Origin: Vicingus serpentipes
Lineage (GTDB): Bacteria > Bacteroidota > Bacteroidia > Flavobacteriales_E > Vicingaceae
Direction of reading: 5' to 3'
Assembly (NCBI RefSeq): GCF_007993035.1
Contig: NZ_VOOS01000005.1
Span: 62,001 to 126,000 of the forward strand
DNA length: 64,000 bases
A model generated the notes under the pieces. It searched no databases. It was not told where the DNA came from and saw nothing but the letters and a program-made list of their open reading frames with translations. Of the stretch, positions 21,129 to 36,300 are shown one piece after another. Both the position numbers and the translations under genes were made by a program. The stretch's first letter is position 1. Every line of letters starts with the position of its first letter.

Positions 21129-24100
21129 ATGAGTTTAAAAAAATACTTTCTTTTTATAATCGCAATTTTATTAGTTAACTTAGGTTTTGCGAACGATTTT
21201 TATTGGGTTGGGAATAGTGGAAATTGGAACGATGCATCACATTGGTCAGCATCTAGTGGAGGAAATGGAGGGATAGGTATACCTACTCAATCAGACAATG
21301 TAATTTTAGATGAAAACTCATTTAAAAAAAATGGAGAATTAACAATTAATGGTAACGTTTATTGTAATAGCTTCACTTCTTCAACTAAGAAAAACTTAAC
21401 TATTTCTGCTAACAATTCTGCTAGCCTTAAAATAGGAAAAGATTTTATCGTAAATGAAAAATTCAACAACAACTTTTTAGGGAGAATTATTTTCGTTAAC
21501 CCTACTCAAATTGCCGATATAAATGCTGGAGATTCTCAGTTTTATGGTGATATTGAATTTAATGGAGCCGGAACTTGGCACTTAAAAAGTAATTTATTTT
21601 TACAGGAAACTAATTCCTTAGTTTTTGAAGAAGGAACCCTTCTAGCCAACAATGTTACTATACTTACAGGCTCATTTGAAATTAATAAGAATAAAACCCA
21701 AAAATTAGAATTAATCAAGTCTAATTTTCATGCAGTAAACAAGTTCGATTTAAAAAATTCTACCACTTTTGATTTAGTTTCAACTAATTCAAACATATTC
21801 ATTAATAGACATGCTTCTAAAGCGAACATTAATACTTCAAGTTTAAACAAAAACTTATTTACATTTGGAGAAAGCACTGTAATGAAAACTTGTGGCGACA
21901 TGGGGTTAGCTGTTACGGCTACTGTTCTATCCGACTACAATTCCTTTGGTGTTTCATGTGATGGTGTTTGTGATGGTATTGCTTATGTTACTATTACTGG
22001 AGGTGTTGGCCCATTCGTAGTGAACTGGGTAGGATACGGAACACTTAATGACCCTGACACCTTACAAAACGCTTGTCAAGGTAACGTTGGGGTTGAAGTA
22101 ACCGATCAAGGTCAAAATCCACCTTTTGGAAGCCAATGTGCTGCTCAAATTTTAATTTCAAATCCTATTGAACTAACTCTAAATGTTATAGGCACAATAG
22201 ACCCAACATGTTTTGGAGATTGTGATGGAGGTATTGGAACTAGTATTAGCTTTGGTGTTCAACCTTATGATATTGCTTGGTCTGGCCCTGGAATTACCCC
22301 AGCCGATACAAACTCATCTATTTTAAACAAATGTAATGGTGCTTACGATCTGACTGTTATAGATGCTAATGGATGTCAAATTGATAGTACTTTTAACATC
22401 ACTGAACCTCCAAGGGTAACTTTTAATTTAGATAGTATAGGAATAAATTGCTTTGGAGATTGTTCTGGACAAGCACTGGCAACTAATGTCGCTGGAGGTA
22501 ATGGAACTCCTTATTCTTATCTTTGGGATGACCCTAGCGCTCAAGTTACTCCAACTGCAAGTAACCTTTGTGCTGGATTTGTTTCTGTTACCGTTACTGA
22601 TCCTCAGAACTGTTCTGCAACAGATAGTATTGAAATTATTGAACCTCTTCCTTTAACATTCAACTCTAGCTTCCAACCAGTATCTTGTGGCGGTCTTTGT
22701 GATGGATCTATTACATCTACAGTTACAGGAGGTGGTGTTGGACCTTATACTCACCATTGGAGTAATGGAACTATTGATGTTGGTGCCTCATCAACAATTG
22801 GTTCGTTATGCTTTGGGACATATACCGATTCAATTGTAGATGCAAATGGTTGTGATACTGTTTTTACTTTTACTATAATTGAACCTACTCCTTTAATTAC
22901 TTCTACAAATTTTAGTGATGTTAATTGTTTTAGTGCTTGCGATGGATTTGCTGTAACTAATACTTCTGGAGGTAATACTCCTTACAGTTATGTTTGGTCA
23001 TCAATTCCTGCTGGTCAAGTAAATACTGGACAAGGAACTGATTCAATTTCTGGCTTATGCCCTGGTCAATACATAGTTGACATCACTGATTTTAAAAATT
23101 GTACTGTTTCTGATACCGTTACAATTACAGAACCTGATTTACTTGTTGTAAACCCAAGTTCAACTGACATTTCCTGCCCTGGATTTTGTAATGGAACAGG
23201 AACTGCTGCACCAACAGGAGGAACAACGCCTTATACTTATAATTGGACAACAGTCCCTCCTCAAAATACACAAGGGGTTAATAGTTTATGTCCTGGTACA
23301 TATTTCATAACAGTTACTGATTCAAACTTATGTGTAAGCACAGATAGTATTGTAATTGTTGAACCTATACCAATGGTTCTAACTATGAATAGTACTGACA
23401 TGAGTTGTAATGGCGTATGTGATGGTACAGCAGATGTTGGAGTCGCTGGAGGAGTAACACCTTATACTTATGTATGGTCATCAGTTCCAGCTGGTCAAGT
23501 TACTACTGGGCAAGGTACTAATGCTATTTCAAATTTATGTGACGGAACTTATACCGTAACCGTTACCGACAGTAATAATTGTACTATTAATAATAATACA
23601 GTTGTTATTGAACCAAACCCTATTACTGTAAATTTAACAACTGTTGATCTATCTTGTAATGGAGTTTGTAATGGTTCTGCAAGTGTTTCTCCTAGTGGTG
23701 GTAATTCTCCATACACTGTATCTTGGAATGGAGGACCTTTTACTGCTGTAACATCAATTTCTGGATTGTGTGCAGGCCCACAAATTGTTGATGTTAGAGA
23801 TAATAACGGATGTATTGAAACTGTCAACTTTGATATTAATGAACCAACTTTACTAACAACAACTACATCAGGAACAGATTTACTTTGTAATAGCGTTTGC
23901 TCTGGAACTGCAAATACAGCTCCAATTGGTGGTACTGCTCCATATAATTATACATGGACTGGGCCTGGAGCTCCATTTACAAACACTCCTTCCCTTACCA
24001 ATTTATGTGCTGGCACTTACTACATTACAATTACTGATGATTCCTTATGTACTGTTTTAGATTCTATTATCATTACTGAACCTCTTCCAATAGACGCAAA

Positions 24101-27100
24101 CGCACAATCAACTGACATGAGTTGTAATGGTGTGTGTGATGGAACGGCTATTTCGTTGCCAATTGGAGGTACTGCTCCTTATAATTTTTCATGGTCTCCA
24201 GGCGGAGCTAACTCTCAATCCTTATCCAACTTATGTAATGGTCAATTCATTGTTACAGTTACAGACTTCAATAATTGTATAGATTTAGATACTGTTATTG
24301 TTGATAACCCTCCACTTTTAACAGTAAACGCAACTAGTATTAATGCAAGTTGTGGTGCTATCTGTGATGGTACAGCTTTAGCTACTCCAAATGGAGGGAC
24401 ATCACCATACTCATACCTATGGAGCAATTCTGACACAACACAATCATCTGGTAATTTATGTTCTGGATCATATGATGTAACTATTACTGATGCTGCAGGA
24501 TGTACAGCTAATGACAACGTTGTAATTGACAATTTAATTATAATTAACATTACTACTAATTCAATTGGAATAAGTTGTAACGGCTTATGTGACGGAGAAG
24601 CTACTGCTAACCCTTCTGGAGGAGCAACCCCATATCAGTTTAGCTGGAATACAGTGCCTGCACAAAACAATCAAACTGCAACAGGTCTTTGCCCCGGAAA
24701 TTATGAAGTTACAGTTACAGATTTAAATGGTTGTGCATCAACAGAAACTGTTAACATGCCTATTGACCCGTCAGTATTAGTTCCTAATGGAATAGCCACA
24801 AACGTTTCTTGTAATGGAGATTGTGATGGTACTTTGGCTTCGGCACCAACTGGTGGTGTACCTCCATATACTATTGTTTGGTCGGTTGCCGACACAAACA
24901 ATGTCTGCCCTGGAACTTATACCGTTACAGTTACAGACTTTAATAATTGTTCTCAAACCGATACTTTAAGAGTAAATGAACCAGATTCAATTAGTACTAA
25001 TCCCTCTATTTCACATGTAACTTGTAATGGAAATTGTAATGGAACTATTACTTTAAATGCAACTGGTGGGACAGGAACTTTATCATACCTATGGGCACAT
25101 GACAGTTCTACAAATCCAGACCTAACAGGTTTATGTGCGGGAAATTATTCCGTAACTATTACTGATTCAACAAATTGTTCAAGAGTTTTTGATTTTACTA
25201 TTACAGAACCTTCTGCTTTAACTGCGACCCCTTTAAGTACAGACGTTAGTTGTTTTGGGGGTAGCAATGGTACTGCTTCTGTTCTGGTAGGCGGAGGAAC
25301 AACTCCTTACACCTATTTTTGGTCTCCAGGAGGTCAAAACACTGATACTATATTTGGACTTTCACCTAACACCTATACTGTTACAATTACAGACAGTAAC
25401 AACTGTATTATCAATCAAAATGTTGTTGTTGATCAACCAAATCAACTACTTGCAAACCTAACAGGAACAACAATAGCATGTAATGGAAATTGTGATGGAA
25501 CAGCTATCGCAACTCCATCTGGCGGTACTTCCCCATACGATTACAACTGGACATTTAATGGAGCTTCAACTCCTTCTATTGGGCTACTATGCGTAGGAAC
25601 TTATACTGTTGAAATAACTGATGATAATGGCTGTACTGTTACTGACAGTTATGATGTAACTTCTCCTGCTATGTTAGCTGTAACTCTTGACAGCACTAAT
25701 ATAACATGTAATGGCAGCGATAATGGGACAGGTACAGTCACTCCAAATGGAGGAACTCCTCCATATACTTATCTTTGGGTTACAAGCAATCAAAACACTC
25801 CAACTGCAACTAATTTAACTCCTGGCATTCATACCGTTACAGTTACTGATTCTTTGGGCTGTTTCTTTACAGGTTCTATAAACATTCAAGAACCAGCAAT
25901 TATTAGCACAAATGAAACTGTAACTGACGCAAATTGTGGTTTTAATGATGGAGTTATTAGTACTAATCCTTCAGGGGGTACTCCTCCTTATACTCACTCA
26001 TGGTCAAGTGGGCAATCATCTCCTACAATAAGCAACTTAGGGGTAGGTTTTTACACAGATACAATTACAGATTTTAATGGATGTTCTGAAGTTTTCACTT
26101 TCGCAATAAGCAATCCAACTGGACCAACTGGAGTTACTGCCACAGTTAATGATGCTTCTTGTTTTGGCTCTTGTGATGGGAATGCAAATGTTATACCTAT
26201 TGGAGGTACTCCAACTTATGGATACTTATGGTCTGGAGGCGAAGTTGATTCTACAATAACTGGTCAGTGCGCTGGAACTTATAGTTTAACTATAACTGAC
26301 GCTTTAAATTGTGTATTAAACACCTTTGTAGTTATAGGAGAAGCTGACAGTATAACAGCAAACTTATTAACTACTAATACTAGCTGTAATTCATCTTGTG
26401 ATGGAACTGCAAGTGTCACTCCAAGTGGAGGAACTGCTCCTTATGATTATTTATGGTCTAATGGTTCTACAAGTTCTTCAGCTTCTGGATTATGTGCTGG
26501 ACCAGCTAGCGTAATTATTACAGACCATAATGGTTGTAGTAAAACAATAAACTTTGATATTACAAGTCCAAACACTATAGTATTAGCAACATCATTTACA
26601 GATGCTTTATGTAATGCTTCCTGCGATGGAACAGCAACAGCAATTGTTTCTGATGGAACTGCACCTTATAACTACTTATGGGATGATGGTTTATCACAAA
26701 CTACTCCAACAGCTACCGGATTATGTTCCGGAAATTACAATGTAATTGTTACTGATAATAATGGATGTTCTGCGAATGCTTCAGTATTTATAGACGAACC
26801 TTCTTTAATAAGCCCAAATGAAGTTATAACTGATGCGACTTGTGGTGCAAATGATGGAAGTGCAATCCTTACTCCATCAGGAGGAACTTCAGGTTATACT
26901 TATGTATGGAGTAATGGACCTACAACACCTAATGTAGGTGGTTTAAGCGCAGGCACTTACACAGTTGATATTACTGATGCCAACAACTGTACACAATCAT
27001 TCCCTATTGCAATTAGCAATGTAAATGGACCAACTATAAATACTACTCAAAATAATGCTTCATGTAATGGTGTTTGTGATGGAGATGCTAATGTTTCTAT

Positions 27101-30100
27101 AAATTCTGGAACTCCTAATTATGATATCTTATGGACTCCAGGTAACCAAACAACATCTTCAATAACTGGTTTATGTGCTGGTAATTACACTGTTGAAGTT
27201 ACAGACGGTTTAGGATGTATTACAACTCAACCTATAACAATTAGTGACAACACTTTAATTACATCAACTATCACAACTATAGATGCTACTTGTAATGGTT
27301 CTTGTAATGGTTCAGCATTAGTAGTTCCTTCAGGTGGAGTTCCTCCATACCAATACAATTGGAGTACTGGCCATACTACTAATGGTGTTGGAGGATTATG
27401 TGCTGGTAATTATTCCGTAACAATAACTGATGATCTAGGTTGTTCTATTACTGAAAATATTAATATCTCTGAATCTAGTTTATTAAATATAACTCCATCA
27501 GTTATTGACGCAAACTGTAATGGAGGGTGCGATGGTGAAGCATTAGTTAGTGTAACGGGCGGAACCGCTCCTTTCAACTATACTTGGTCGAATGGAGCAA
27601 GTACCCCTAATATTGTTGGGTTGTGTGCTGGTAATTATGATGTCATTGTTACTGATATTAATGGTTGTTTGGGTACTCGTTCTTTAACTGTTGGTCAAGG
27701 AACAGCGATTACAGCTACAATTACAAGTAATGATGCTACTTGTGGAATTTGTGATGGTGATGCCACAGTTTCTCCAGCTGGAGGATCAGGAGCTCCTTAT
27801 GATATTTTATGGTTGCCATCTGGACAAAACACTCCTAATGCAACAAACTTATGTCCAGGAGCATATAGCGTAGAAATAACAGATAATGTAGGTTGTTCAG
27901 AAACTGTAAACGTGTTGATAAGCAACCCAAATGGTCCTGATATTACTACCGAGGCAGATAGTGTTTCATGTTTTGGAACATGTGATGGAAATACTTGGAC
28001 AACTATAAATTCAGGTACTGCCCCATACATCTATCAATGGGATGATATATTATTACAATCAAATGATACCGCTAACAGCTTATGTGGAGGTTTATATAAT
28101 GTTGTCGTTCAAGATGCTAATGGTTGTATCTCTGTAGATTCTTCTAGAGTATTTGAGCCAGAAGAAATTTTAGCAAACATTACTTCTACACCTATAAACT
28201 GTATTGGAAATTCAGACGGAACTGCAACAGCAAATCCAACGGGTGGAATTGGAAATTATCAATATACATGGAATACTATACCTGTTCAAAATTCACAAAC
28301 AGCTACAGGCTTAGCAGTTGGAACTTATACCGTAACCATTACTGATGACAATAACTGTTCAATAATAGATAGTGTTACTATTACTTCTCCAACCTTAATA
28401 GATATAACAATTAGCGCAACAAGTGCAACTTGTAATGGAGATTGTGATGGGACAGCATTAGCTACGGCATCAGGGGGCAATCCTCCATACCTTTATACTT
28501 GGGATGATGCTTTAACTCAACAAAACTCATTAGCTGCAGGTTTATGCTCTAGTTTATATACAGTTACCGTTTCAGATAATAACGGCTGTACAGTAACAGA
28601 TACTGTTACGGTTCCTAATCCAACTACACTGTCGACTTCTTCAGTTCAGACTCCTGTTAATTGTTCTGGAAATTGCGATGGAACAATTACAACTAATCCA
28701 GTTGGTGGTGTAGCTCCTTACAATTTTGTATGGAGTGATGGCCAAACTTCACAAACAGCTACAGGATTATGTGCTGGAACTTACAATGTAGTAGTCATAG
28801 ATGCAAACAATTGTACAACTTCTGATACAATCATTTTAACTGATCCTTCAACTATAAATGATAGTACAACTATTAATGGACCTACTTGTGGTTTATGTGA
28901 TGGCGATGCAACAGCAAATCCAGTTGGAGGCGTTGGCCCTTATACCTATTTATGGGGAGATGGACAAACAACACAAACAGCTGTTGGGTTATGTGCTTCA
29001 ATCATTACTTTAGAAATTACAGACCAAGGTACTGGTTGTGTTTATAATTTTAATGTAATAGTAAATAATATTACCGGGCCAAACACAACAATAACTAGTA
29101 TAGATGAAACTTGTACATCTGCATGTAATGGTTCTGCAACTGTTAGTGCAAGTGGAGGTTTAGCTCCATATTCTTATACTTGGAATACATCTCCAGTACA
29201 AACAGATTCAACAGCAATTGGGTTATGTACAGGAAGCTACAATGTAACTATTGAAGATGCTCAAGGTTGTATCTCAATTGATACTGTTACAATTGGAACT
29301 AATGGATTGAATTTATCTATTACCAATGTAACACCTGAGAGTTGCTATGAAAACTGTGATGGTGAAGCGACTGTAGTTGTAGGTTCTGGAACTTCTCCAT
29401 TTGTTTATCAATGGACGCCTACAAGTCAATCAAACCCAACAGCAACTGGATTATGTGTTGGGACTTATCTTGTAACTGTTACGGATAATTTAATTTGTTC
29501 TGATTCTATTAGTACAAACATTACTGGACCAGACTCAATAAGTGTTTCTATTATTACAAATACACCTATTGGTTGTAACGGAGTTTGCGATGGACAAATT
29601 ACGGCTTCAGTAACTGGAGGTTCTTTACCTTATCAATATACTTGGGATAATGGAGAAACAACTCAAACCATTTCTAACTTATGTGCAGGAACTTACGTTG
29701 TAACGATAACTGATGCTAACGGTTGTACCAATTCAGCAACAGTAACTTTAACTGAACCTAATCCTATCGTGGCTAACGAAAGTTTAGTTCTTCCTTCATG
29801 TAATCAATGTAATGGAAGTATCAGTTTAGCTCCAAGTGGAGGAATTGGACCTTATTCGTTTGTTTGGTCTAATGGTCAAAGTACAAATCCAATTATTAAC
29901 TTATGTGCCGGTGCTTACACAGTAACAATAACAGATAATGCAACTGGATGTTCGACTATTGCTCCAATTGCTTTAAGCAATAGTAATGCACCTCAAACAA
30001 ATGTAACAGCAACACCAATTAGTTGTAATAATGTTTGCGATGGTGAATTAACATCTACTCCAACTGGAGGAACAGCTCCTTATAACTATTTATGGAATCC

Positions 30101-31409
30101 AACAGGACAAACAACTCCAACGGCAACTGGGCTATGTACTGGTATTTACACTTTAGAAGTAACTGATGATTTAGGTTGTATTGGTGTCTCAATAGATACT
30201 TTAGCAGAACCTCAAACTTTTACTGCTAACATTACTGCTGATGACATTTCATGTAACGGATTATGTGATGGGTGGGCAGTAGTAAATCCTATTGGAGGAA
30301 CTACTCCATATCAAACAGCAGTTTGGACTCCTGGCAGTATGGCAATAGATTCTATTACTAATTTATGTGCAGGTACTTATTTTGTATCTGTTGCAGATGC
30401 AAATGGATGTAATGCAATTGATAGTGTTACAATTTCAGAACCTACAGCAATAACTATTAGCTCTACTTCAGTAGATGTAACTTGTAGTGCTAATTGTGAT
30501 GGAAGTGCAAATGTTAATCCTTCGGGAGGAATTGGTCCTTACTTATATTCTTGGTCACCAGGTGGGCAAACTACAAGTAATCCAACAGATTTATGTTTAG
30601 GATTGAACACTGTAACAGTGACTGATCAAAACGGCTGTACAATGATAGACGTGATAACTACAGCTGCTACAGACACAATTGATGCACAAACAGAAGTAGA
30701 TTTTAATGCTTGTATTGGAGCTCCTTTCAACTTAAATGGAATTACTACAGGAAATGTAAATTCTGTTGAATGGTTTGCTATTCCAGGAATGATTTCTATT
30801 GGAACTTCTGACACTGTAATAGTTAACCCAACTACTACAGGAGCATTCCAATACGTATTTGAAGCAAGCGGTGCTTGTAATGATTTTGACACAATTACAG
30901 TAACTATAGAAGCTTTACCAATAATTGATGCGGGTCTTAATGTCACAATTATTGAAGAAACTAGTACTGTATTAAATGCAACTGGAGGAGTTACTTATAC
31001 TTGGTCTCCTTCTGCTGGATTAAGCGATTCTACAATTTCTAATCCAACAGCAACACCTCTAGTTACCACTACTTATTATGTAACAGGCACTAGCATTAAT
31101 GGTTGTATTGCAACAGATAGTGTAACGGTAACAGTTATTCCAACTATTCAATTCCCTGATGGTATCACACCAAACGGAGATGGTAAAAATGATACTTGGG
31201 TAATTGATTACATCGACCAATATCAAGATGCAGTTGTAGAAATTTATAATCGATGGGGTGAATTGTTATTCCACTCTGATGATTACCAAAACGATTGGGA
31301 TGGAACTTATAATGGAGAAAATTTACCTATTGGAACTTACTACTACATTATAGATTTAAAAGATGGTAAAACTGAAGCATTTACTGGTCCATTAACAGTA
31401 TTAAGATAA
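21129..31409 (+). CDS. Giant secreted adhesin with 38 SprB-type repeats and a gliding-motility-associated (CHU_C) C-terminal domain
   Basis: A 3426-residue protein with a signal peptide (about 1-21, ending LGFAN). An N-terminal region (about 22-270) begins FYWVGNSGNWNDASHW, a motif common at the start of large Bacteroidota surface proteins. Next come 38 tandem SprB repeats of about 75 residues with consensus CNGxCDG...GGTxPYxYxW...GLCAGxYxVTVTDxNGC, a PKD-like region (about 3180-3330), and a CHU_C/type B T9SS sorting domain (ITPNGDGKNDTW ... NRWGELLF ... NLPIGTYYYI). In Flavobacterium johnsoniae SprB is the mobile gliding adhesin moved on the cell surface after T9SS export. The repeats have almost no Lys/Arg and are Asp/Thr-rich. 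The next gene encodes a PorP/SprF protein, the usual partner of type B cargo. Whether this strain glides cannot be told from here. Confidence 0.95.
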   Translation: MSLKKYFLFIIAILLVNLGFANDFYWVGNSGNWNDASHWSASSGGNGGIGIPTQSDNVILDENSFKKNGELTINGNVYCNSFTSSTKKNLTISANNSASLKIGKDFIVNEKFNNNFLGRIIFVNPTQIADINAGDSQFYGDIEFNGAGTWHLKSNLFLQETNSLVFEEGTLLANNVTILTGSFEINKNKTQKLELIKSNFHAVNKFDLKNSTTFDLVSTNSNIFINRHASKANINTSSLNKNLFTFGESTVMKTCGDMGLAVTATVLSDYNSFGVSCDGVCDGIAYVTITGGVGPFVVNWVGYGTLNDPDTLQNACQGNVGVEVTDQGQNPPFGSQCAAQILISNPIELTLNVIGTIDPTCFGDCDGGIGTSISFGVQPYDIAWSGPGITPADTNSSILNKCNGAYDLTVIDANGCQIDSTFNITEPPRVTFNLDSIGINCFGDCSGQALATNVAGGNGTPYSYLWDDPSAQVTPTASNLCAGFVSVTVTDPQNCSATDSIEIIEPLPLTFNSSFQPVSCGGLCDGSITSTVTGGGVGPYTHHWSNGTIDVGASSTIGSLCFGTYTDSIVDANGCDTVFTFTIIEPTPLITSTNFSDVNCFSACDGFAVTNTSGGNTPYSYVWSSIPAGQVNTGQGTDSISGLCPGQYIVDITDFKNCTVSDTVTITEPDLLVVNPSSTDISCPGFCNGTGTAAPTGGTTPYTYNWTTVPPQNTQGVNSLCPGTYFITVTDSNLCVSTDSIVIVEPIPMVLTMNSTDMSCNGVCDGTADVGVAGGVTPYTYVWSSVPAGQVTTGQGTNAISNLCDGTYTVTVTDSNNCTINNNTVVIEPNPITVNLTTVDLSCNGVCNGSASVSPSGGNSPYTVSWNGGPFTAVTSISGLCAGPQIVDVRDNNGCIETVNFDINEPTLLTTTTSGTDLLCNSVCSGTANTAPIGGTAPYNYTWTGPGAPFTNTPSLTNLCAGTYYITITDDSLCTVLDSIIITEPLPIDANAQSTDMSCNGVCDGTAISLPIGGTAPYNFSWSPGGANSQSLSNLCNGQFIVTVTDFNNCIDLDTVIVDNPPLLTVNATSINASCGAICDGTALATPNGGTSPYSYLWSNSDTTQSSGNLCSGSYDVTITDAAGCTANDNVVIDNLIIINITTNSIGISCNGLCDGEATANPSGGATPYQFSWNTVPAQNNQTATGLCPGNYEVTVTDLNGCASTETVNMPIDPSVLVPNGIATNVSCNGDCDGTLASAPTGGVPPYTIVWSVADTNNVCPGTYTVTVTDFNNCSQTDTLRVNEPDSISTNPSISHVTCNGNCNGTITLNATGGTGTLSYLWAHDSSTNPDLTGLCAGNYSVTITDSTNCSRVFDFTITEPSALTATPLSTDVSCFGGSNGTASVLVGGGTTPYTYFWSPGGQNTDTIFGLSPNTYTVTITDSNNCIINQNVVVDQPNQLLANLTGTTIACNGNCDGTAIATPSGGTSPYDYNWTFNGASTPSIGLLCVGTYTVEITDDNGCTVTDSYDVTSPAMLAVTLDSTNITCNGSDNGTGTVTPNGGTPPYTYLWVTSNQNTPTATNLTPGIHTVTVTDSLGCFFTGSINIQEPAIISTNETVTDANCGFNDGVISTNPSGGTPPYTHSWSSGQSSPTISNLGVGFYTDTITDFNGCSEVFTFAISNPTGPTGVTATVNDASCFGSCDGNANVIPIGGTPTYGYLWSGGEVDSTITGQCAGTYSLTITDALNCVLNTFVVIGEADSITANLLTTNTSCNSSCDGTASVTPSGGTAPYDYLWSNGSTSSSASGLCAGPASVIITDHNGCSKTINFDITSPNTIVLATSFTDALCNASCDGTATAIVSDGTAPYNYLWDDGLSQTTPTATGLCSGNYNVIVTDNNGCSANASVFIDEPSLISPNEVITDATCGANDGSAILTPSGGTSGYTYVWSNGPTTPNVGGLSAGTYTVDITDANNCTQSFPIAISNVNGPTINTTQNNASCNGVCDGDANVSINSGTPNYDILWTPGNQTTSSITGLCAGNYTVEVTDGLGCITTQPITISDNTLITSTITTIDATCNGSCNGSALVVPSGGVPPYQYNWSTGHTTNGVGGLCAGNYSVTITDDLGCSITENINISESSLLNITPSVIDANCNGGCDGEALVSVTGGTAPFNYTWSNGASTPNIVGLCAGNYDVIVTDINGCLGTRSLTVGQGTAITATITSNDATCGICDGDATVSPAGGSGAPYDILWLPSGQNTPNATNLCPGAYSVEITDNVGCSETVNVLISNPNGPDITTEADSVSCFGTCDGNTWTTINSGTAPYIYQWDDILLQSNDTANSLCGGLYNVVVQDANGCISVDSSRVFEPEEILANITSTPINCIGNSDGTATANPTGGIGNYQYTWNTIPVQNSQTATGLAVGTYTVTITDDNNCSIIDSVTITSPTLIDITISATSATCNGDCDGTALATASGGNPPYLYTWDDALTQQNSLAAGLCSSLYTVTVSDNNGCTVTDTVTVPNPTTLSTSSVQTPVNCSGNCDGTITTNPVGGVAPYNFVWSDGQTSQTATGLCAGTYNVVVIDANNCTTSDTIILTDPSTINDSTTINGPTCGLCDGDATANPVGGVGPYTYLWGDGQTTQTAVGLCASIITLEITDQGTGCVYNFNVIVNNITGPNTTITSIDETCTSACNGSATVSASGGLAPYSYTWNTSPVQTDSTAIGLCTGSYNVTIEDAQGCISIDTVTIGTNGLNLSITNVTPESCYENCDGEATVVVGSGTSPFVYQWTPTSQSNPTATGLCVGTYLVTVTDNLICSDSISTNITGPDSISVSIITNTPIGCNGVCDGQITASVTGGSLPYQYTWDNGETTQTISNLCAGTYVVTITDANGCTNSATVTLTEPNPIVANESLVLPSCNQCNGSISLAPSGGIGPYSFVWSNGQSTNPIINLCAGAYTVTITDNATGCSTIAPIALSNSNAPQTNVTATPISCNNVCDGELTSTPTGGTAPYNYLWNPTGQTTPTATGLCTGIYTLEVTDDLGCIGVSIDTLAEPQTFTANITADDISCNGLCDGWAVVNPIGGTTPYQTAVWTPGSMAIDSITNLCAGTYFVSVADANGCNAIDSVTISEPTAITISSTSVDVTCSANCDGSANVNPSGGIGPYLYSWSPGGQTTSNPTDLCLGLNTVTVTDQNGCTMIDVITTAATDTIDAQTEVDFNACIGAPFNLNGITTGNVNSVEWFAIPGMISIGTSDTVIVNPTTTGAFQYVFEASGACNDFDTITVTIEALPIIDAGLNVTIIEETSTVLNATGGVTYTWSPSAGLSDSTISNPTATPLVTTTYYVTGTSINGCIATDSVTVTVIPTIQFPDGITPNGDGKNDTWVIDYIDQYQDAVVEIYNRWGELLFHSDDYQNDWDGTYNGENLPIGTYYYIIDLKDGKTEAFTGPLTVLR
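21945..30650 (+). repeat. In-frame tandem array of 38 SprB-repeat coding units
   Basis: Thirty-eight units of roughly 215-245 bp each encode a repeat starting at a Cys-x3-Cys-Asp-Gly motif. Units 18, 22, 26, 31 and 35 form a second type, with a shortened CGx(x)DG-like start and an end reading ISN.NGP instead of I.EP. That gives a higher-order period of four to five units (about 0.9-1.1 kb). Copies are diverged at DNA level, so the array is old rather than recently amplified. Confidence 0.9.
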
Positions 31410-31416
31410 TTTGAAC

Positions 31417-32340
31417 ATGAGAAAAATACTTTTAATATCATTTTTATTACTAAGTGGAGGATTGTTGTTTTCTCAACAACTTCCTCACTTTAGTCAATAT
31501 TATTTAAATGATTTTTTAATAAATCCGGCTATCGCTGGTACTCGCCCTTATTTTGAAGGTAAATCGGCACACCGATACCAATGGGAAGGAATTACAGATG
31601 CCCCTAGAACTTATACACTAAGTGCTCATGGGCCAACCAAAAATCAAAAAATGGGGTTGGGAGGTTATTTATTTACCGACAATGTTGGACCTACTAGAAG
31701 AACTGGCTTTAATTTAGCTTATGCCTACCACTTAAAAATAAATCAAAAATTAAACTTATCGTTAGGTTTATCTGCAGGTATTTTACAATTTATGATTGAT
31801 GGCTCTAAAATTACCTTACGTGAGGAAGATGACGACATCATTACGAATGGCGTGCAATCTACCTTAATACCAGATGCTGGTTTTGGTTTGTATTTATACC
31901 ACGAAAAATATTACTTCGGTTTTTCTGCACCACAACTATTAAACAATAAGATTAACTTTTTTGAAGATGGTAGAAACCCAACTGGAACTTTACCAAGTCA
32001 CTTTTTTGCAACAGCAGGTTATAACTTACAATTAAATGAGGATTTCACCTTGCAACCTTCTGTTTTTGTAAAATATGTAAAACCAGCACCTATTCAGTTT
32101 GAAGGAACATTAAAAGTATTATACAAAAACAAATTGTGGTTAGCGGGTACTTACCGTGATAAAGATGCAATAACAGCTTCGTTAGGATACTTAATAAACG
32201 ATAGTTTTACTGTTGCCTATGCTTATGATTTTACAACCACCAATCTAAGGAACTATAGCAATGGTACGCACGAGTTGTTAGTAGGTATTCGTTTTTACAG
32301 TTTTGCTCCTAAAAAAGATTCTGAAGCTTCTTTTGAGTAA
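31417..32340 (+). CDS. PorP/SprF family type IX secretion outer-membrane protein
   Basis: From the ATG at 31417 (a TTG two codons earlier is possible) this is 307 residues. It has a signal peptide ending LLFSQQ and the PorP/SprF signature FSQYYLNDFLINPAIAGT, followed by a 14-strand-type barrel. SprF-like proteins are needed for surface delivery of SprB-like cargo; the gene starts 8 nt after the adhesin stop codon, so the two form a cargo-partner pair. Confidence 0.93.
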   Translation: MRKILLISFLLLSGGLLFSQQLPHFSQYYLNDFLINPAIAGTRPYFEGKSAHRYQWEGITDAPRTYTLSAHGPTKNQKMGLGGYLFTDNVGPTRRTGFNLAYAYHLKINQKLNLSLGLSAGILQFMIDGSKITLREEDDDIITNGVQSTLIPDAGFGLYLYHEKYYFGFSAPQLLNNKINFFEDGRNPTGTLPSHFFATAGYNLQLNEDFTLQPSVFVKYVKPAPIQFEGTLKVLYKNKLWLAGTYRDKDAITASLGYLINDSFTVAYAYDFTTTNLRNYSNGTHELLVGIRFYSFAPKKDSEASFE

Positions 32341-32350
32341 ATCTATAGTG

Positions 32351-32378
32351 CGAATATGTACACTGGTGTACATATTCG
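32351..32378 (+). repeat. Perfect 13-bp inverted repeat with 2-nt loop
   Basis: CGAATATGTACAC and GTGTACATATTCG flank TG. It lies just after the SprF-like stop and 3 nt before GTTAGCACC, the left end of the putative cassette. There is no T-run on either strand, so it is a poor intrinsic terminator. It may be the remnant of an attC-like site or a transcript-end hairpin. Confidence 0.6.
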
Positions 32379-32382
32379 GATG

Positions 32383-32965
32383 TTAGCACCAATTAAAAGA
32401 AATGGAAATAATATTTAAACATACTTGGATAATGTTCATTGCAGTAACTATTGCAAACGGACTAATTCTAAAATATCGCTCAAAGAAATATATCCTTCAA
32501 AACCCTGAATTAAAAGAAGGCTATGACAAATATTTCAAGGGATGGATGATTTTCGGAAATATTCCTTGGGTTATTATGATGATTGGAAATCTGAGTGGAA
32601 TAACACAAAACACTTTTGAATACTTTAATCCAAAAGCTATGAATACAATGGTATTAATATTTCACTTTTCAATAATCGTGCTTTGGGTGCTAAGTGTGAG
32701 ATGGATTTATTTTAAAAATGGTGCTGAGTTTATTGAAACACATCCTGGACTATTTCAAAAATCGATTTTTAGTGGAAATACGAATTTGACTGCAAAACAG
32801 GTTAAGCTATTTTTTCCATTAATGCTTTTGGGAGGAATAGCAGGAATGATTATGATGTGGGTAATGGATATTCCAAGTCCACAGTTTTAAAAATAAAAAA
32901 AGGTGCTAACACTGTATATGAAATCATAGCCGCCTATCGGCAGGCTACGCTTCATATACTAAACG
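32383..32965 (+). mobile_element. Putative integron-type single-gene cassette (583 bp)
   Basis: The segment holds one gene (32402-32890) and ends in an attC-like palindrome. Its left end reads G^TTAGCACC (32382-32390) and its attC begins with GGTGCTAAC (32902-32910). If excised at G^TT on both sides, the circle would rejoin G(32965) to TTAGCACC, making a perfect 9-bp match between the two outer arms, as expected for an integron cassette. In the integrated state the right arm is GTTAACAAT and matches poorly. No integrase gene is in the window. Confidence 0.5.
32402..32890 (+). CDS. Integral membrane protein of unknown function (cassette gene)
   Basis: A 162-residue protein with four predicted transmembrane helices (about 6-22, 48-66, 83-102 and 133-156). 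No signal peptide or known motif is recognisable. It is enclosed by inverted 9-bp ends and an attC-like site, so it may be a cassette-borne accessory gene unrelated to its neighbours. Confidence 0.75.
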   Translation: MEIIFKHTWIMFIAVTIANGLILKYRSKKYILQNPELKEGYDKYFKGWMIFGNIPWVIMMIGNLSGITQNTFEYFNPKAMNTMVLIFHFSIIVLWVLSVRWIYFKNGAEFIETHPGLFQKSIFSGNTNLTAKQVKLFFPLMLLGGIAGMIMMWVMDIPSPQF

Positions 32966-32972
32966 TTAACAA
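32902..32972 (+). repeat. attC-like palindromic site
   Basis: The order is GGTGCTAAC, then GTATATGAA (32914-32922), TAGCC (32927-32931), a GCC/GGC-rich tip, GGCTA (32943-32947), TTCATATAC (32951-32959) and GTTAAC (32965-32970). The outer AAC/GTT triplets and imperfect inner arms resemble attC sites. The interior mismatches (ATCA versus CG-C) would leave extrahelical bases, as attC folding requires. Spacer lengths (3 and 5 nt) are not fully canonical. Confidence 0.5.
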
Positions 32973-32978
32973 TTCCTA

Positions 32979-33344
32979 ATGAACGAACAAGACCATTTTT
33001 ACCTTGATAAAGAAGAACCAAACAAGGGTTGTTTAATTACATTAAGAAACATCATTTTACAACAAGACGAAAACATTACTACTACTAAAAAATACGGCAT
33101 GCCTTGTTTTTGTTATAAAAATAAAATGTTTTGCTACTTATGGGTAGATAAAAAAACGAATGAACCCTATATACTATTTGTAGAGGGACAAAACATCAAT
33201 CATCCTAAGTTAGAAACTGGCATTCGCAACCGAATGAAGATACTTCGGGTAAACCCTAACAAAGACATTCCAATTGAAACAGTTACAAGCTTATTAAATA
33301 CTGCTCTAGATTTATACCGGAAAGGAGTAATAAAAGTGAGCTAA
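32979..33344 (+). CDS. DUF1801/YdhG-like domain protein
   Basis: A 121-residue cytoplasmic protein with KKYGMPCFCYKNKMFCYLWVDKKT, which resembles the DUF1801 (YdhG-like) fold; function unknown. It starts 9 nt after the attC-like GTTAAC, so it could be a second cassette, but no matching TTGTTAAC end is seen after its stop. It is convergent with the large barrel gene (4-nt gap). Confidence 0.75.
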   Translation: MNEQDHFYLDKEEPNKGCLITLRNIILQQDENITTTKKYGMPCFCYKNKMFCYLWVDKKTNEPYILFVEGQNINHPKLETGIRNRMKILRVNPNKDIPIETVTSLLNTALDLYRKGVIKVS

Positions 33345-33348
33345 TTTT

Positions 33349-36300
33349 TTAGAAAAACGCTCTTACCTGCACTCCTCCAATATGTATTATTTTAGCGTCA
33401 TTCGATTTTCGCCCATTATAATTTAAACTTAATTGCATATGTTTCGATAGATTTTGTTGAAACACCAATTCCCATGTGGTATTTGAACCTTGCTGCAAGC
33501 CTTCTAGCATTTCATAATTTAAGCTCTCGTTATTTATTATGCTCTTGTATTTATTTTCAATAAAATTAATACTAAACAAAAAACTTCCTTTTGATGCAAT
33601 ATTATATCGAAACTCGCCTCCTACTTTGTTTGCTTTTAATTCTTGCCCCCCTAAAAATTCATCATTGTATTTCTCTTTGTATTTATACAAAATCGTAATT
33701 CGAAATTTTACATTTGGTTGTATTACCAATTTGGGTTCCGCTTCATAATTTGTTAAATAGTAATTTTGATTGGTAAAAAATTGCGATTTATTGTTTTTTA
33801 CTCCATTAGCTAAGGTTGTATTAAAGGTTATTATTCGAGTCAAATTCCACCTAACTTTTAGCGTTCTAATAAAATATCTTCTCGACTCTTTTCCATTAGT
33901 TAACAAAGATTTATCTTGATTATCTTGATAAGTAAAGTCGGCACTCCAATTGGTATTTGTTCGATTAAAATAAATGGTATTTAAAAATCCTAAATTAAGG
34001 GTAACCAAACTACTATCATCTACACTTCCTATAAAAGGATTGTAATAATCTGTTTTATCAGATACTTTACGAGCTACTCTGTAATTAGTACGGTTTGAAA
34101 AACGCGACAAAAACTTTTTAACACCCTTGCCTGTTCCCCATTGTGTTTCCGGATTTAAAAACAACCCTTGATTAAAATCGTTGGTGTAAGTTCTTACGTA
34201 ATCGTTAGTTGGTGTAAATATTTTAATAAAATTAGCTTGATCCTGAAATGCCGCAACTTCAAATTCATTTAAATCATTAACTCCATTTCCATTTAAGTCT
34301 CCTAAATAGGCATGTGTACCTTGCCCTGGCTGAACCTCTGCATAAGAAAATTCTCTTTTTACCTCAAGCCCAGAGCCAACTTGATAATAAGTATTTAATG
34401 TAATTGCACTTTTTAGCAACTTCCCTACATATTCTAATCTTGATAAAACATTTTCATCAGGCTGAATTGCAGATAAAGTAGGCTCGAGAATTTCTAATTT
34501 ACGATAAGTAAACTTTGTTCTTAATATATGATTTTTGTTTTTCAACCAATCATACCCAATGGCAACATCTTCTGCTTTTGTAGTTGGTATTAGTTGATTA
34601 ATCAGCGGAACATTATCAGTTCGCTGCTGGTAGCTCAACGTGTATTTGTTAATAGAAGTATCCGCATTTTGTAAAAACGATTTCCAAACTAAAAACTGAT
34701 AACTATTTGCTTTTAAGGTATCTGATAAATTGACCAAAAATTTATTTTGCTCAAACTCTTCTTCTGCACCTAATACAAACCAACCTAAATTTTGAGTTAA
34801 TCTTAACTTATTTCTAAAAAACCTTGTGTTTTGTAATCCATCAGTATATAAAAAGCTACCACTACCAATAGCATTAAACCCATTTAGGTTATAATTAAAA
34901 TTCACATTATTTTTAACTCCTTTATATTCATTAATATTTTGTAAAACATCAATTTGATAAACTAGACTTGCTTTTTTTTCTTTTTCAATTCCTAAATGAA
35001 CTTGCCCTAAATGCTGGTCAGAAAACAAAGTTAAATTAGATGTGTTCCAATCTCGTTGAAATTCAATATTTCTGAACGGACCAAGAAAATTAAAATCCTT
35101 ATCAACAAATTCATAACCTCCACCAACAAGCATTTGCCAACCTTTTTCTTGAGTATTATCTATGCTAACTTTATTAATAGAGTTTACCTTAAAAGCATAA
35201 CCGATGTTATCTTCACCATCTAATGTAGAAAATGTGTTTTTATCATAATTTGATAATGCTCCTTCCCAACTAATAATTGATTTATCAGAAAACTTATACG
35301 ATCCACCCAAAGTGGTTACTTGTAATTTTTTAGGGCTAATCAATAAAATAACAGGTTCAAAATTTCCTTGAGGAATACCGCCAACAGGAGCAACCCACTC
35401 ATATACTTTTCCATTAGCTGAACTCTGTATTTGGACATAATTTCCATTATTAGCTCCTACTTGAGAAAAACCTAATTGATAAATTGCAGAATCAGGATTT
35501 GTTGAATACACAAAAACAGAATCATACCCTAAAGTATCTATCATTTGATAGAGTACTTTGTTTTCAGAAAATTCTACAGCAGTAAAATTTGGTACTACAG
35601 CTTTTTGCAAACTATCTCCAACATTAGCTAAAACTAACTTTTGCTCATTTGTTAAATCCTGTTGTAGAGGTTGGTCTTTTAAATCTTGTTCTGAATAAAT
35701 ATTGAAATCCAGTTTTAATTTTTCACTCTCATATTCAGTATTAAAATGATAAATCGTACGTGAATAATTCCTGTCCGAATATTCAAAAGTTACAACTATC
35801 CTTTTATCTTTTGTAATTAAAAAATTAGCTGTAAAAGTTATCTCAGAAGTATTGTAATCAATTACATAATCAAACTCATTACCTCTCTTTAATAATTGAC
35901 CATCAACAAAAACTTGTTCTGTACCAGATAGCACTACTATAAAAGTTTCGTTATCATTCCCTTTTAATCGATATGGCCCCTGATTCCCTTCTATTCCAAC
36001 AAACTGATTTCTTGCAAATTTTCCTTTTGCAATTGCTGCACTAATATAGGGTGTTAATATTCTGTTTTCATTTTTTTTACTTGGCTGTAACGCAATTTCA
36101 AAACTTCCTCCTTTTGCTTTCTTATTGTAATTTAAAAAATAACTCTTAGGTTGCTTCATAAAAAAATCTCCCGCAGTAAGCCTCCATTGATCATTAAATA
36201 ATTGAATAAAAACGTTGTCAAAATCTTGTAATTGTTGCGTGTTCCCTTCTGCTTGAATAGGTATATTTTCATCTGATATTGAGGCTAGAATGCTAATATC

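Follow-up and report, generated by a model that had tools for sequence, protein, structure and literature searches.

The 64-kb stretch of the Vicingus serpentipes genome analysed here, called the window, contains a single-gene insertion just after sprF, with ends that resemble those of an integron cassette. The question it raises is whether the gene is a cassette, and if so, which recombination system could have placed it there. Sequence comparison makes it likely that the gene belongs to an integron-like system of the Bacteroidota, in which a recombinase would excise the cassette as a circle and join its folded strand to a receptor at G^TT.

The Window Cassette and Its Ends

The putative cassette is 583 bp long and spans positions 32383 to 32965 on the + strand, its limits being set by analogy with a second receptor family, described below, in which the G^TT point is seen. 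On the left is the core GTTAGCACC (32382 to 32390, +), presumably cut between 32382 and 32383 at G^TT. The gene itself (32402 to 32890, +) is predicted to encode a 162-aa membrane protein of unknown family, with hydrophobic peaks. On the right is an attC-like site made up of R'', a hairpin and R' (32899 to 32976, +), which scores 58.1 bits against R1, a covariance model of which this site is itself a training row. The outer arm R'', GGTGCTAAC (32902 to 32910, +), is the complement of the left core. It is followed by the stem arms L'', GTATATGAA (32914 to 32922, +), and L', TTCATATAC (32951 to 32959, +), the letters of both having been checked, and by the right core GTTAAC (32965 to 32970, +), in which the cassette's G would be followed by the start of the original target sequence. 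An Rfam search of 32000 to 33400, at E values up to 1, matched no family.

Together the two ends of the cassette form a perfect 10-nt inverted repeat. With DNA parameters, the bottom strand of the rejoined circle's site folds, with an outer arm of 10 bp, at -22.7 kcal/mol, vs -20.1 for the top strand, and the integrated site folds at -15.5 kcal/mol on the bottom strand vs -13.5 on the top. The 64-kb window contains 53 GTT-anchored 9-bp inverted pairs spaced 200 to 3000 nt apart, and an AAC-stem-GTT hairpin follows just one of them, the pair that bounds this cassette. A sequence-only reading of this DNA had given coordinates and letters for the cassette ends which were correct on re-check. It had also described 9-bp paired arms in the circular form (one base shorter than the arm found here), had called the structure hard to get by chance, and had suggested looking for an attC-like fold of the bottom strand. 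The pairing and the rarity are both borne out, and the fold was found, slightly better on the bottom strand than on the top. A cassette with integron-type ends is strongly supported. What that reading overlooked is a palindrome just left of the cassette, at 32350 to 32379.

R1 was built from 25 training sites, the window site included, and within the window it finds just this one site. The search for further sites of the same shape, also suggested by the sequence-only reading, was fruitful: R1 finds four in the organism's own genome under strict filters. Sites are present in 31 of 69 relatives, own genome counted. When genomes were sampled evenly across the phylum, an R1 site at E 0.001 turned up in 21 of 148, a total that again includes the own genome.

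The Locus and the Relatives of the Cassette Gene

Two other genomes of the genus, G001 and G003, have sprF directly beside an outer-membrane gene, and the cassette, the palindrome and a 121-aa gene are absent from them together. The own genome is about 1 kb longer there, the extra sequence being the palindrome, the cassette and a DUF1801 gene, and alignment of the flanks gives no exact empty site for this cassette. The DUF1801 gene (121 aa, window positions 32979 to 33344) has no cassette end of its own that could be seen. On the other side, a 3426-aa repeat-rich surface protein is encoded at 21129 to 31409, just before the PorP/SprF gene (type IX secretion).

The cassette protein has no match in Pfam or NCBIfam, and its gene was found neither in the 59 other relatives searched (0 of 59) nor in viral contigs. 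Relatives with 83-86% identity occur in distant records: a Flavobacteriaceae MAG, a Persicobacter MAG and a contig labelled Spirochaetaceae, which is perhaps misbinned. The gene is also on pPP2 (NZ_AP025294.1, 404 kb), a plasmid of Persicobacter psychrovividus, at 85.8%; pPP2 carries two matches, one of which was fetched. Cassette ends are present in four of the seven gene copies examined (the window, L045, L046 and L227). In L045 and L227, the pPP2 copy, the gene has the same ends and is inside an array. The arms of L046 are GTTGGCACC and TGTGCCAAC, which means that both sides have changed together. The other three copies, L044 (85%), L047 and L048, are without cassette ends, which counts against the gene being always a cassette.

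Two Families of Receptors

The overlooked palindrome is a putative attI-type receptor, GCGAATATGTACACTGGTGTACATATTCGG (32350 to 32379, +), which stands just after the sprF stop and is followed by AT and then G^TT. It has 13 perfect pairs around a 2-nt loop, is the only such palindrome in the window, and is the same element as the one after the genome's own integrase gene (GCGAATA..TATTCGG). At that recombinase locus the stop codon is followed by a perfect palindrome and G^TT, and then by a single gene with its matching arm and a site that scores 39.9 bits; the insertion point in the window closely resembles this attI. The palindrome pattern has seven copies in the own genome and none in three genomes of the same genus, and it is specific, with 7 matches vs 0 in the control. 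A different pattern, ATTCGGATGTTAAYAA with 2 mismatches, was rejected, being no commoner than its reversed control.

A model site follows four of the seven palindrome copies (L207, L209, L211 and L213), the copy in L208 looks empty, and those in L210 and L212 (C2:537612 and C3:71275) have no cassette end. By eye, the flank beyond the empty-looking copy (L208, 1501 to 1600) resembles the flank beyond the cassette of the own recombinase (L074, 8440 to 8540). Upstream of the L209 copy, 22 residues at 1423 to 1488 resemble the tail of the recombinase (E 0.005), a hint that a recombinase-attI junction was the source from which the receptors were copied; this tail is the one recombinase remnant found beside the receptors. 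A palindrome with GTT near the stop codon accompanies 9 of 21 recombinases (L100 weakly) vs 8 of 275 other ORFs, p 1.2e-7, in a test of stricter palindrome geometry that was set up after the result of a looser one. The looser test, of the strength of hairpins behind recombinases, had not reached significance (p 0.065).

Two other R1 cassettes of the own genome sit in copies of a different repeat, about 90 nt long. Eleven copies of it were read, of which seven are interrupted, three intact and one (L204) degenerate. The seven interruptions lie near the same G^TT point, and the right half of the repeat resumes after 674-1385 bp. The inserts have 8/8 arms in six of seven cases, the exception being L205 (not full arms), and in six of seven the right junction carries a model site, the exception being L206. 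These filled and empty copies within one genome are the best evidence for insertion at G^TT. The four sites that R1 finds in the own genome under strict filters are all at receptors, one of them (L135) at a variant palindrome; further cassettes there were found by inspecting receptors and do not make an independent count. The ~90-nt repeat is dispersed (L198-L206, L134 and L136) and ends in the receptor point. It contains promoter-like TTGAC and TA..TTCG motifs, and it may drive the inserted cassettes.

Arrays, Arm Pairing and the Folded Strand

Across 24.5 kb of pPP2, R1 places all of its 29 sites on the + strand, which the 21 annotated genes of the array share without exception. Of 28 comparisons between consecutive sites, 19 give arms with at least 6 contiguous pairs. 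Among 21 consecutive site pairs from the fetched arrays, a set which retains some zero pairs from false sites of the site finder, the mean arm is 3.81 contiguous bases vs 0.98 with shuffled partners, and 0 of 20,000 shuffles are as high. Such pairing within the cassette is the modularity expected of circularising units. The canonical R' core consensus, GTTRRRY, fits 2 of the 29 pPP2 sites, and the fourth base of R' is a purine in all 29. L081 (G021:C14), with a recombinase, a palindromic attI and at least 10 cassettes within 19 kb, is a good reference locus. In a genome of the same genus, a site with the arm GGTGCTAAC lies behind a gene pair (L076, 9003 to 11094), presumably RloB and an AAA ATPase.

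The mismatches in the stems indicate which strand folds. In 28 distinct stems, A.C on the gene strand occurs 67 times vs 29 for G.T and 12 for others, and by site the A.C excess is 23 vs 1, with 4 ties, in a count that scores ungapped stems only and retains a few false sites, e.g. L075:1114. The 19 distinct stems of pPP2, none of them training rows, give 55 A.C vs 8 G.T and 20 others (p 1e-9), and an A.C excess at 16 sites vs 2, with one tie. Since A.C on the gene strand is a G.T wobble on the other strand, it is apparently the bottom strand that folds. Most stems of the 28-stem set have their mismatches at two places five bases apart. Most run ungapped for 17-24 bp by a method that scored ungapped stems only; the stem of the window site contains a bulge and is slightly unlike them.

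The Candidate Recombinase

A tyrosine recombinase of 382 aa is encoded in the own genome, at approximately C1:541,190-542,340; it scores 228.3 bits against NF040815 (NCBIfam cut-off 220) and 194.7 against the integron-integrase model TIGR02249 (cut-off 265). Its counterparts in G001 (224.3) and G003 (226.6) are over the NF040815 cut-off, and those in G012 (216.4) and G021 (210.0) are below it. No genome among 100 relatives passes the cut-off of TIGR02249. As a marker this model is uninformative, with sub-cut-off matches in 99 of the 100 relatives and in 14 of 14 control genomes. The 31+11-residue insert of IntI1 is absent from all seven aligned Bacteroidota recombinases (the own and six others, the L056 array being unchecked), and residues 179-243 of IntI4 align opposite about 23 residues in the candidate recombinase. 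In an unrooted tree of 34 proteins, four IntI rows fall on one side of a 100/100 branch, apart from 25 Bacteroidota rows. The predicted fold (pLDDT 81, pTM 0.56) is nearest to XerA (5hxy) and to Vibrio cholerae VchIntIA (2a3v). The sequence-only reading placed the cassette away from any integrase, which is right locally; elsewhere in the genome there is this array-type recombinase with its own attI and cassette. The IntI-like integrase that it proposed to search for exists in the form of an IntI/XerA-like protein, below the TIGR02249 cut-off and without the IntI insert.

The recombinase also has an N-terminal extension of ~105 residues, for which there is no Pfam family over the cut-off and no solved structure found by sequence. 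By predicted fold, its best matches are XPB (Z 6.4) and HARP (Z 4.2), all with Z < 8, and this likeness is a lead only.

R1 was run on 23 recombinase loci, and 14 of these contain sites, 46 in total; every one is on the strand of the recombinase and 45 are downstream of it, many of these sites being training rows. The other nine loci are without a site, and for six of the nine less than 4.4 kb of sequence was fetched. The recombinase family is broad and has plasmid recombinases among its members, for which we know of no cassettes. The link between recombinase and sites is inferred from proximity and co-distribution only.

Proposed Mechanism and Competing Explanations

Some cassettes form arrays on one strand, downstream of a tyrosine recombinase of ~380 aa, and others stand alone at receptor sites. 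As we picture it, the recombinase would excise a cassette as a circle, whose joined junction would read GGTGCTAAC..G^TTAGCACC, would bind the folded bottom strand of the hairpin site, and would join that site at G^TT to a receptor, either the palindromic attI behind the integrase gene or an attI-like copy, of which several are dispersed in the genome. The window cassette would have entered such a palindrome copy, the one beside sprF. Strand choice may rest on the two fixed-place G.T wobbles in the stem, not on extrahelical bases, and this would fit a recombinase without the helix that docks extrahelical bases. That recombination takes place, which strand it uses and what this recombinase does in it are all inferred from sequence.

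One competing explanation is that chance palindromes or terminators flank a transferred gene, and the left palindrome does lie right behind a stop codon, as a terminator would. This is scarcely credible when the hairpin accompanies a single one of the window's arm pairs, when seven palindrome copies are present here and none in three same-genus genomes, when the same gene with the same ends is found in another genus, and when copies of the receptor repeat are interrupted at the same point. A transposon, or a single-strand transposase (IS200/IS605-like) with hairpin ends, could have moved the gene, with a hairpin adjoining the passenger gene and insertion beside palindromes. We consider it very improbable, because the ends vary between cassettes yet pair within each, different genes are lined up in head-to-tail arrays, and one point in the repeat is used for insertion.

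The gene might instead be an ordinary canonical cassette, transferred from a classical IntI integron, in which case the local Bacteroidota recombinases would be irrelevant. The architecture is that of an integron (G^TT, paired arms, hairpin, bottom-strand bias), but the relatives have no protein over the IntI cut-off, the sites depart from the GTTRRRY consensus, all 46 sites share the strand of a recombinase that has no IntI insert, and the palindromic receptors sit behind that I2-less recombinase. Rare canonical integrons occur in Bacteroidetes (in the portion consulted of PMC9024848), and cassettes are known to enter attG sites outside integrons (cited in an excerpt of PMC12444791); on balance this origin is still quite unlikely. 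A small but real probability attaches to a double-strand, Xer-type exchange between palindromic sites, in which the hairpin would not be the substrate and the cassette nature would be unchanged. The recombinase is XerA-like and without I2, and several receptors are strong palindromes. Against this, double-strand exchange normally requires an identical overlap and the partners have only G^TT in common, and the mostly bottom-strand wobbles at two fixed places are hard to explain without a folded strand. Xer recombinases do serve other integrating elements (from part of the text of PMC7790495).

Relation to Known Systems

The system that we favour, a recombinase acting on a folded cassette strand, is like the IntI integrons (class 1, Vibrio) in its G^TT-bounded cassettes, its cassette-specific complementary outer arms, its hairpin site, the sequence signature of bottom-strand folding, and its same-strand arrays behind a tyrosine recombinase and receptor site. 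It is unlike them in that the recombinase has no I2 insert and has the N-terminal extension of ~105 aa, R' is GTTR without RRY, the L stems mostly have two wobbles at fixed spacing, and a palindrome of some 20-30 nt behind the recombinase stop codon forms the attI. The absent IntI insert and the poor fit to GTTRRRY suggest an integron-like working in which two features that define the canonical family are lacking. The name integron cassette, given by the sequence-only reading, thus holds for the ends; in the strict sense it does not, on the same two counts and with no relative over the integrase model cut-off.

Like CALINs and single attC sites, these cassettes lie away from an integrase, but those of the own genome sit behind recognisable receptors, either the attI-like palindrome or the second repeat. 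As at attG sites (Loot et al. 2024), cassettes enter the genome outside an integron; attG sites are broadly spread over many loci (according to the part of PMC12444791 consulted), whereas the receptors here are two repeat families of near-identical copies. The own recombinase resembles the XerA / TnpF-type recombinases, being over the NF040815 cut-off and nearest to XerA in fold, but these were not found described as serving cassette arrays in the literature searched.

For Bacteroidetes, the relevant portion of the IntegronFinder 2.0 paper reports nothing beyond In0 earlier and a single complete integron, that of Salinibacter ruber (PMC9024848), and Bacteroidota are not among the 11 taxon attC models in the portion seen of PMC8352920. 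No description of the present system was found among the listed open PubMed Central papers; only rare Bacteroidota integrons were found in the literature, which is not proof of absence in print. The work on archaeal integrons uses the IntI-specific domain as a filter, as stated in a section of PMC9668308, and since integron finders need this domain, a cassette economy of the Bacteroidota could be missed.

That such a system is Bacteroidota-wide, with an I2-less recombinase that acts on folded bottom strands by reading two G.T wobbles, perhaps with help from an XPB/HARP-type N-terminal region, and with many dispersed attI-like outposts holding single cassettes at many loci, has in our judgement about an even chance of being right. 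In the portion consulted of PMC7790495, the I2 helix docks extrahelical bases, Xer proteins are without I2, and the helix is held to be the innovation enabling integron integrases to work on single-stranded sites. If our reading is true, an I2-less recombinase serving hairpin cassettes would allow a direct test of that idea, and the dispersed receptors would be a new layout, in which cassettes are placed round the chromosome instead of in one array.
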